Below, piece after piece: positions 4,794 to 9,739 of a stretch of 64,000 nt of DNA; position 1 is the stretch's first letter; each line of letters starts with the position of its first letter. This DNA comes from Pedobacter planticolens (lineage in GTDB: Bacteria > Bacteroidota > Bacteroidia > Sphingobacteriales > Sphingobacteriaceae), in the NCBI RefSeq assembly GCF_014172375.1, contig NZ_WNXD01000002.1, positions 620,001 to 684,000 of the forward strand. The letters are read 5' to 3'. The notes below the pieces were generated by a model that was not told the origin of the DNA, ran no database searches, and saw only the letters and a list, made by a program, of their open reading frames with translations. The translations under genes were made by a program, and so were the position numbers.

Positions 4794-4822
4794 CAAAAAA
4801 AGCGACCTGTACCTGGGCCGCT
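4794..4822 (-). terminator. Terminator of the tRNA-like transcription unit
   Basis: Read on the minus strand, AGCGGCC (4822-4816) pairs with GGTCGCT (4807-4801), followed by seven T residues (4800-4794). It lies 30 bp downstream of the 3' end of the tRNA-like gene at 4852-4995, in the right orientation to end that transcript. Confidence 0.65.
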
Positions 4823-4851
4823 TCCCTTAACTAACTTATTATTTATAAAAC

Positions 4852-4995
4852 TGGCTGTTGGGGAAGGAGTCGAACCTTCAAGGGGTAGTTAGCTGCAATT
4901 CAAAATTAATTTGTGGTCAACCCATAAATTGCGTTTGTCCCATAATCCCCACCACCGAGACAAGGAGGTGTGTCTGCCAATTTCACCACCCAACA
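4852..4995 (-). tRNA. Class II tRNA-like gene with GTC in the anticodon loop and a 72-nt variable region
   Basis: Read 5'-3' on the minus strand. The acceptor strands are TGTTGGG (4995-4989) and CCCAACA (4862-4856), followed by discriminator G and an encoded CCA (4854-4852). The D arm GTGAAATTGGCAGACAC resembles bacterial tRNA-Leu. The anticodon arm is CCTCC-TTGTCTC-GGTGG, with one U-U mismatch and anticodon GTC at 4961-4959. The T arm is GAAGG-TTCGACT-CCTTC with a canonical T loop. The variable region is about 72 nt, against about 12-20 in normal class II tRNAs. It can fold as GGGG/CCCC, then GCAATT/AATTGC enclosing two small hairpins. Position 37 is a pyrimidine, which is atypical. It may be a decoding tRNA, a non-decoding tRNA-like RNA, or a tRNA with an insertion. 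A related copy lies 72 bp upstream. Confidence 0.6.
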
Positions 4996-5067
4996 TTCTT
5001 TAGTACTCAGTTTGCAATTTTCAATTGGCAGTTGTGAACTGCTAACCGTTAACTGTTAATTGAGTTG

Positions 5068-5177
5068 CTGTAGGGGAAGGAGTCGAACCTTCATAGAGTG
5101 GTTGTACCGTTACCGGATTTCCCAATTTCTCCACCACCGAGACAAGGAGGTGTGTCTGCCAATTTCACCACCCTACA
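5068..5177 (-). tRNA. Second class II tRNA-like gene with GTC in the anticodon loop and a 41-nt variable region
   Basis: The acceptor strands are TGTAGGG (5177-5171) and CCCTACA (5075-5069), followed by G and then CAA, so CCA is not encoded. The D arm and anticodon arm are identical to those of the neighbour at 4852-4995, including the loop TTGTCTC (5145-5139) and the U-U mismatch; the T arm is identical too. The acceptor differs by one compensated pair (T-A for A-T), as expected under selection for pairing. The variable region is about 41 nt and folds as a stacked arm: GAG/CTC, TTG/CAA, then CCG-GTAA-CGG closed by a GNRA-type loop. It is promoter-proximal in the two-gene unit. Confidence 0.6.
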
Positions 5178-5226
5178 GAGTATAAGCAAATGATTTAAAG
5201 AACTATTTTGTTGTACTTGCTTGATA

Positions 5227-5259
5227 CAAACATAAGACAAATACCAAATATGTTGCAAA
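5227..5259 (-). promoter_or_regulatory. Promoter-like site for the tRNA-like pair
   Basis: On the minus strand TTTG (5259-5256) is separated by 21 bp from TATGTTTG (5234-5227), an exact match to the Bacteroidota -7 consensus TAnnTTTG. Transcription would begin near 5220, about 43 nt before the first tRNA-like gene. The site sits between the divergent lrp-like gene and the tRNA-like pair. Confidence 0.4.
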
Positions 5260-5332: not shown

Positions 5333-5806
5333 ATGCTCAAAAAAGAAACTCAAAATTTAGAAATTGACAACCTCGATATTCAGATTTTAACACAGTTGAT
5401 GCAAGACGCAACAAAACCTTACACAGAAATCGCAAAAGAACTCATCATTTCTGGCGGAACAGTACACGTAAGGATGAAGAAATTGGTAGATATGGGCATC
5501 ATCAAAGGTTCACATTTAATTATTGATCCTAAAAAAGCAGGATTTGATATCACTGCCTTTTTAGGTATTTACTTAGAAAAAGGTTCTTTATATAAGGATG
5601 CCGTAGAACAACTCAGCAAAATAAAAGAAGTAGTAGAACTACACTACACAACTGGCTCTTATAGTATGTTCGCTAAAATAACCTGCCGAGATACCGACCA
5701 CCTGCGTCATGTATTAAACGAAGAAATACAAGCTGTAAAAGGAATACAACGCACTGAAACACTAATCTCCTTAGAAGAAAGCATTAAAAGACAGATAGAG
5801 TTGTAG
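5333..5806 (+). CDS. Lrp/AsnC family transcriptional regulator
   Basis: This 157-aa protein has the usual length for an Lrp/AsnC regulator. An AsnC-type winged helix-turn-helix lies at about 10-65 (IDNLDIQILTQLMQDA, then YTEIAKELIISGGTVHVRMK) and a RAM ligand-binding domain at about 75-155 (AFLGIYLEKG, then VVELHYTTGSYSMFAKI). I chose ATG 5333 over the in-frame ATG at 5276 because the extra 19 residues (MYFYDNCNK...) resemble no family N-terminus and would run into the upstream regulatory region. Such proteins typically sense amino acids and bind DNA as octamers. The target is unknown; the divergent tRNA-like unit is its nearest neighbour. Confidence 0.88.
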   Translation: MLKKETQNLEIDNLDIQILTQLMQDATKPYTEIAKELIISGGTVHVRMKKLVDMGIIKGSHLIIDPKKAGFDITAFLGIYLEKGSLYKDAVEQLSKIKEVVELHYTTGSYSMFAKITCRDTDHLRHVLNEEIQAVKGIQRTETLISLEESIKRQIEL

Positions 5807-9328: not shown

Positions 9329-9361
9329 CAGAATTGAAATTAATGTTGTTTATAGTGAAAG

Positions 9362-9739
9362 AAGTCTAAATGACTGAGGGAAAAGTCTTGTTGACTGAGC
9401 AAGAAGTCTAAATGACTGAGGGAAAAGTCTTGTTGACCGAGCAAGAAGTCTAAATGACTGGAGGAAAAGTCTTGTTGACCGAGCAAAAAGTCTAAATGAC
9501 TGGAGGAAAAGTCTTGTTGACTGAGCAAGAAGTCTAAATGACTGAGGGAAAAGTCTTGTTGACCGAGCAAGAAGTCTAAATGACTGGAGGAAAAGTCTTG
9601 TTGACCGAGAAAGAAGTCTAAATGACTGAGGGTAAAGTCTTGTTGACCGAGCAAAAAGTCTAAATGACTGGAGGAAAAGTCTTGTTGACCGAGCAAGAGG
9701 TTTAACTGACTAGAGAAGAAGTCTTGTTGACTAGGCGAT
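9362..9739. repeat. Tandem array of 18 x 21-bp units (9 x 42-bp higher-order repeat)
   Basis: Eighteen 21-bp units alternate between two types: AAGTCTAAATGACTGAGGGA-like and AAGTCTTGTTGACCGAGCAA-like. Each pair makes a 42-bp period, and only the last two or three units are clearly degraded. Every unit contains a dyad AGTC-N5-GACT (or GACC), so dyads are spaced exactly two helical turns apart on one face of the DNA. An ORF runs through the array on the minus strand (9340-9696), giving heptads such as LDFLLGQ and QDFSSSH. All plus-strand frames contain stops, but two of three minus-strand frames are open simply because the unit lacks stops there. It is probably non-coding, perhaps a protein-binding array. 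Confidence 0.85.

Follow-up and report, generated by a model that had tools for sequence, protein, structure and literature searches.

The 64,000-nucleotide window analysed here, a stretch of Pedobacter planticolens DNA, carries two neighbouring RNA genes that join the body of a class II tRNA to the anticodon of an aspartate tRNA, and this unusual combination raises the question of what such RNAs do in the cell. The reading of these elements as tandem class II tRNA-like genes, put forward in an earlier note, was borne out on inspection, with both genes lying on the minus strand. The features on which the argument below depends are as follows.

5333–5806, plus strand: asnC, a gene for an AsnC-type regulator by domain, NCBIfam and PDB matches, divergent from the RNA genes
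5227–5259, minus strand: presumed promoter motif for the RNA genes, TTTG-N21-TATGTTTG, of Bacteroidota type
5195–5203, minus strand: weak boxA-like GTTCTTTAA in the leader
5068–5177, minus strand: element B, a tRNA-like RNA of 110 nt with no encoded CCA
5139–5145, minus strand: anticodon-type loop of B, positions 32–38, reading U32 U33 G34 U35 C36 U37 C38
4852–4995, minus strand: element A, a tRNA-like RNA of 141 nt (4855–4995) followed by an encoded CCA (4852–4854)
4957–4963, minus strand: anticodon-type loop of A, identical in sequence to that of B
4913–4922, minus strand: conserved motif GGUUGACCAC within the long variable region of A-type copies, present in 38 of 179 distinct copies
4794–4829, minus strand: intrinsic-terminator hairpin and U tract at the end of the transcription unit (−16.5 kcal/mol, z −3.4)

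Elements A and B each possess a 7-bp acceptor, a D arm closed by GTG/CAC, a 5-bp T stem, a U1-A72 first pair and a G73 discriminator, and both display the loop TTGTCTC (in DNA letters). The variable region of B extends over 41 nt and comprises a GGAG/CUCU helix and a GNRA-capped hairpin, while that of A extends over 72 nt. The structural particulars described in the earlier note, namely the acceptor, D arm, T stem, G73, single encoded CCA and both variable-region lengths, were all verified in the sequence. The U-U mismatch reported for the anticodon stem is likewise present in A and B, but it is branch-specific rather than family-wide, with C-G, A-U or G-C found at this site in other families. 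Since these families pair at the U-U position, the anticodon stem comprises five pairs, and the suggestion of a shorter, 4-bp stem closing a 10-nt loop is unsupported. In single-sequence minimum free energy calculations neither A nor B surpassed its shuffles (z −0.32 and 0.20), and the case for the RNA therefore rests on covariation and conservation. The GGUUGACCAC motif of A-type copies is also present in some other families; the A-type copies that bear it, from several families, are those at window positions 4855–4995 and at loci L182, L183, L186, L188, L193 and L194, together with L196, L198, L234, L235 and L237.

ARAGORN reported no tRNA at A or B, nor anywhere in the 64-kb window, and Rfam with default filters found neither element. 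Under permissive filters B scored 36.9 bits with the Rfam tRNA model (RF00005, cut-off 29), while A was not reported as RF00005 and gave only a sub-threshold match to tRNA-Sec (RF01852; 17.8 bits, cut-off 47). Because ARAGORN and default Rfam were blind to the RNA in the stretches tried, other genomes may carry it unnoticed. No publication on this RNA was recognised in a literature search of open-licence PMC papers.

When 251 genomes of the family to which the window's genome belongs were searched by BLAST with B, 161 yielded homologues at E values of 2e-17 or better, in 15 of 25 genera, a count that leaves out 13 genomes with a weak best match (E 2e-4 to 7e-3; 174 with them). A further copy of B, at 99% identity, lies on another contig. 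A covariance model built from 18 sequences (R1) extended the family to 37 genomes of 17 other families, counting matches longer than 100 nt and of at least 56 bits among the matches listed for a 247-genome sample of the class. Ordinary tRNA-Leu genes (80–85 nt) also match R1, at about 50–58 bits; hence the raw tallies of 151/151 and 235/247 are not counts of the RNA and were not used. Genomes were scored on their best 25 or best 15 candidates under strict filters, in two homologue searches, so that a genome recorded as lacking detected RNA can conceal real copies.

In an alignment of 42 distinct copies fitted to a model, 97.8% of the pair cells were paired and 20 of the 31 pairs changed on both sides, with 162 cells of two-sided change observed versus 42.6 in shuffles and 9–19 in slid structures. 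When 41 closer copies were aligned with MAFFT, without fitting to a model, the signal was weaker but pointed the same way (5 pairs and 17 cells versus 1.6 and 1.9). Both alignments describe a cloverleaf with compensatory changes. Co-varying homologues, whose presence had been set beforehand as a test, were thus found within the family and well beyond it, and their spread and compensatory changes refute the suggestion that these are decayed tRNAs no longer used and rule out a pseudogene. The RNA family is real and old. A mobile or phage origin was rejected as well, the phage matches being short (those listed covered no more than 14% of the query) and in many cases located inside tRNA-Leu genes; the plasmid records held no match to the RNA, and its exact core sequence was not found in the viral contigs.

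The upstream promoter-like site and downstream terminator noted earlier were both located (5227–5259 and 4794–4829); a generic sigma-70/terminator scan listed neither of them. The TTTG-N-TATGTTTG site is one that we take, by consensus, to be a Bacteroidota-type promoter. A search of 255 distinct upstream stretches, many of them related to one another, located the pattern TTTG-N18-22-TANNTTTG in 147, versus a mean of 1.25 in mononucleotide shuffles. The likeness of GTTCTTTAA to boxA is similarly our assignment by consensus, and the boxA-like pattern was present in 85 of the 255 upstream stretches versus 10.4 in shuffles.

We then compared the copies with known identity elements. Strong determinants for aspartate, in the available excerpt of PMC9976931, are G73, G34, U35, C36 and C38. 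Among 179 distinct extracted copies, G34 was present in 178 and U35, C36, C38 and G73 in all 179, although many of the close copies came via a pattern that fixed TTGTCT; the anticodon-type triplet is GUC in 178 of the 179, and not the GUU of a decoding tRNA-Asn. Copies were extracted with a pattern in which portions of the acceptor, the anticodon stem and the T loop were fixed while the anticodon-type loop and G73 were free, and some loci (e.g. L195) escaped it. In the 42 copies from L173 onward, most of which were found by the model, G34 was retained in 41 and U35, C36, C38 and G73 in all 42. Since U1, G2, C71 and A72 were fixed during extraction, figures for the first pairs were taken from the model alignment instead, where U1-A72 and G2-C71 are invariant (42/42). 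Position 20a was A in 179 of 179 copies and never U. These positions bear on GatCAB, as the amidation of Asp-tRNA needs U1-A72, with G1-C72 and U20a acting as antideterminants (PMC9976931, in excerpt), and the bacterial GatCAB-substrate set (U1-A72, no G1-C72, no U20a) is complete in the RNA.

Two further comparisons qualify this assignment. The excerpt of PMC9976931 states that bacterial tRNA-Asp has G1-C72, which helps E. coli AspRS to position the 3′ end; this feature of AspRS substrates is absent from the RNA (U1-A72 in 42/42), and charging by AspRS may therefore be weak. The same source places U1-A72, G2-C71, G73 and U35 within the Gln identity set also, of which G3-C70, G36, A37 and U38 are absent from the RNA. 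In the window's own genome, numbered by eye, the ordinary tRNA-Asp displays G1-C72, U20a and the loop CTGTCAC, and tRNA-Asn displays U1-A72 but also U20a. Features of a decoding elongator (a conserved U33 and a purine at 37) were not retained, with U, G and C at position 33 in 168, 7 and 4 of the 179 copies, and U, C and G at position 37 in 165, 7 and 7, never A. The Leu/Ser-type core that had been proposed thus holds for the shape of the body but not for its identity, as G73 together with GUC and C38 constitutes an Asp identity set. Judged by these positions, the RNA bears the identity sets of AspRS and GatCAB together while relaxing the features tied to decoding.

The gene divergent from the RNA provides a second line of evidence. 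The product of 5333–5806, a gene separated from B by 155 bp, contains AsnC domains, and among solved structures it lies closest to E. coli AsnC (2CG4, E 2.9e-36), with the leucine-responsive Lrp (2gqq) at 9.8e-11; among NCBIfam models, the AsnC equivalog scored 170.5 bits, below its cut-off of 227, followed by LrpA (71.9) and Lrp (48.1). Once repeats of one place had been merged, asnC was found within 1.5 kb of the RNA at 126 of 155 distinct places, always divergent. It was absent from 21 of them despite 1000 bases of upstream flank, and the remaining 8 had too little flank. Around nine loci without asnC, the 16 neighbouring proteins scanned revealed no recurring gene, the one exception being an anchor domain shared by two related loci. 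A relocation of asnC to asnA or asnB was considered and dropped, as none was seen in 18 stretches (17 from genomes in which the RNA was undetected, and one from G433). E. coli AsnC activates asnA, and asparagine reduces this activation, according to excerpts of PMC8707732 and PMC4482635.

The distribution of the enzymes of asparagine metabolism offers a third. Genomes that encode both AsnRS and GlnRS leave no textbook job for GatCAB. Our enzyme survey covered 80 genomes, 36 with the RNA and 44 without detected RNA, out of 122 (56 and 66, respectively); they were chosen before the AsnA, AsnB, AsnRS and GlnRS results, while GatB had already been seen for 22 of them. GatCAB was scored by GatB (GatA was seen in G261 alone), and AsnB by the equivalog NF006949, since TIGR01536 is too broad (80/80 genomes matched, 68 over cut-off). 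AsnRS was present in 80/80 genomes and GlnRS exceeded its cut-off in 48/80, with G396 scored as negative despite a 126-position GlnRS piece. GatB was found in all 36 genomes with the RNA versus 24 of the 44 without detected RNA, AsnA in 1/36 versus 5/44, and the AsnB equivalog in 0/36 versus 12/44. Within the 48 genomes possessing both AsnRS and GlnRS, the RNA occurred in 24 of 28 with GatB versus 0 of 20 without it (Fisher p 1.3e-9), and AsnA or AsnB in 0/28 versus 13/20 (Fisher p 4.0e-7), p values that are uncorrected for phylogeny and overstate the association because the genomes are related. An exchange is visible even inside one genus (g21), where G042 and G067 carry the RNA and GatB but no AsnB, whereas in G021 and G077 AsnB is present, GatB absent and the RNA undetected. 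Family f36 contrasts G285 and G358 with G325, which is without GatB and also without AsnA and AsnB.

Several genomes depart from this pattern. G433 is the only one of the 36 RNA-bearing genomes with AsnA, and it carries the only copy of the 179 in which G34 is replaced by C. Four genomes (G075, G123, G012 and G261) encode GatB, AsnRS and GlnRS without detected RNA; of these, G012 was matched by BLAST at 1.8e-17 and may hold a missed copy. In G261, a GatB-AspRS fusion of 1106 aa (L222:4804-8121) directly follows gatA, AsnRS and GlnRS are also present, and another AspRS-like frame of 596 aa lies beside the fusion. Model R2, run with filters off, returned only chance scores for an RNA copy beside this fusion. 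The fused AspRS has an H31-type residue, which we take to mark a non-discriminating enzyme, and the AspRS of the window's genome is L31-type, presumably discriminating. Both G433 and G261 fit a model in which the RNA makes asparagine. Among 20 genomes with GatB but neither GlnRS nor detected RNA, 19 also lacked the AsnA and AsnB equivalogs, so either diverged copies were missed or these genomes have another source of asparagine; 7 of the 20 GlnRS-positive, GatB-negative genomes lacked AsnA and AsnB too. Many genomes, the window's included, also encode AsnB-like proteins that belong to a different subfamily and score under the AsnB equivalog cut-off; these might make asparagine.

What the analysis shows is that the RNA is conserved and covaries, is syntenic with asnC, co-occurs with GatB and is nearly exclusive of asparagine synthetases. 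We consider it probable that the RNA is a dedicated non-decoding tRNA that is charged by AspRS, amidated to Asn by GatCAB and controlled by AsnC. Among the three roles offered in the earlier note, this retains the aminoacylated donor outside the ribosome, now sharpened to aspartylation followed by amidation to Asn, in preference to the other two. The steps of charging, amidation, ribosome avoidance, release, asparagine sensing and AsnC control, which we infer, would proceed as follows. AspRS would read G34-U35-C36, C38 and G73 and load Asp onto the RNA, and GatCAB would recognise U1-A72 and convert the attached Asp into Asn by amidation. Two departures from an ordinary tRNA, an anticodon loop in which U33 varies and A37 never occurs and an expanded variable domain, would keep the product off the ribosome, on which an Asn-tRNA(GUC) would misread Asp codons. 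Asparagine would then be freed, spontaneously or by a hydrolase, and become available to AsnRS and metabolism, while the divergent AsnC would sense it and set how strongly the RNA is transcribed, in the manner of E. coli AsnC acting on asnA. With somewhat less assurance, we also favour the broader view that a biosynthetic tRNA, acting as an RNA cofactor under AsnC feedback control, replaces asparagine synthetase across much of the class. To our knowledge, amino acid synthesis on tRNA always takes place on tRNAs that also decode, and a tRNA reserved for metabolism alone would, if confirmed, constitute a new role. It would further explain why many of these bacteria keep GatCAB alongside AsnRS and GlnRS, a puzzle stated in the excerpt of PMC4206432 for genera that have all three and no asparagine synthetase.

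Other roles could be reconciled with part of this evidence. Retention of the Asp identity set without the decoding features would suit an RNA that carries Asp to some other reaction outside the ribosome (aspartylation of lipids, the cell wall or peptides), or an Asn donor after amidation, in place of a supplier of free Asn, and non-proteinogenic donor tRNAs do exist. We hold such a donor to be unlikely, as a pure Asp donor leaves unexplained the invariant U1-A72, GatB in 36/36, the near-exclusion of AsnA and AsnB and the adjoining asnC, and the neighbouring proteins scanned at the nine loci without asnC reveal no recurring gene, bar one domain type in two of them. The divergent asnC and the large, structured variable domain are also what would be seen in an asparagine-sensing regulatory RNA, which would report asparagine status to AsnC or some other target through its charging with Asp or Asn, amino acid production not being its purpose; this we regard as slightly more doubtful, for it does not explain the absence of the AsnA and AsnB equivalogs from 35 of the 36 genomes with the RNA.

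A decoding role, with Asp, Leu, Ser or Asn placed at GAU/GAC codons, would agree with GUC in a 7-nt loop and with U33 in 168/179, but the genome already possesses an ordinary tRNA-Asp(GUC), position 33 is G or C in 11/179 and position 37 never A, and mistranslation would be expected if the RNA were amidated. The recoding tRNA entertained previously is disfavoured because U33 varies and A37 never occurs, and we judge decoding of any kind highly improbable. There is finally the case in which GatCAB serves classical Asn formation on tRNA-Asn via a non-discriminating AspRS, the RNA being a passenger that merely shares the same lineages. The genome's tRNA-Asn has the required U1-A72, and the excerpt of PMC4206432 proposes the classical route for AsnRS/GlnRS/GatCAB genera without asparagine synthetase, Bacteroidetes included. 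Against this stand the U20a of the same tRNA-Asn and the joint switch of RNA, GatB and AsnB within genus g21. The genome's own AspRS also has residues that we take to be those of discriminating enzymes, and the passenger scenario is, on balance, improbable.

The preferred role, asparagine formation on a dedicated RNA, has partial precedents. A non-discriminating AspRS and GatCAB make Asn on tRNA-Asn in Deinococcus, Thermus and Bdellovibrio (PMC4206432, in excerpt). The RNA resembles this route in its AspRS-loaded Asp (as proposed here), U1-A72, GatCAB and the mostly absent asparagine synthetase, but its carrier is a separate, putatively non-decoding RNA paired with asnC and bearing the Asp anticodon GUC, for which a discriminating AspRS would suffice. 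It would work like tRNA-dependent asparagine synthesis yet falls outside the classical route, which uses the decoding tRNA-Asn as carrier. As in E. coli asnC-asnA, an AsnC-type regulator lies beside a (proposed) asparagine-forming function, although here the neighbour is an RNA and not a protein enzyme, and control is suggested by position only. The body shares its D arm, long variable arm and 7/5 acceptor branch with class II tRNA-Leu, and departs from it in G73, U1-A72 and GUC, as well as in a variable region that is structured and ranges from about 40 to more than 100 nt. Staphylococcal cell-wall synthesis uses a non-proteinogenic tRNA-Gly, which is similar in being a tRNA kept for a non-decoding job, but differs in the amino acid it carries, in its body and enzymes, and in what it is for. 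Allo-tRNAs, in the excerpt of PMC7609411, are unusual tRNAs with 8/4 or 9/3 branches and diverse anticodons that include GUC, whereas the RNA described here has 7 acceptor and 5 T-stem pairs.

Some loci display unusual arrangements of the RNA. Five tandem copies, at 150-bp and about 370-bp spacing, occur in Solitalea longa (L087/L206) and Pedobacter sp. SYSU D00535 (L056), and asnC is absent within 1.5 kb of these arrays. In Arcticibacter eurypsychrophilus (L142), a partial duplicate lies directly 3′ of a full copy, and a Pedobacter metagenome bin (L084) carries a fused B/A hybrid copy. By eye, the 3′ trailers of Arcticibacter-like loci (L020-L036 and L056) show a possible alternative pairing with the variable region, in which GGUUAG complements CUAACC, the terminator loop CCCAU complements AUGGG and, in A trailers, AGUUAG matches CUAACU. 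Elsewhere in the window, the reading frame at 9340–9696 consists of a repeated GQQDFSSSHLDFLL-type unit and is probably a DNA tandem repeat.
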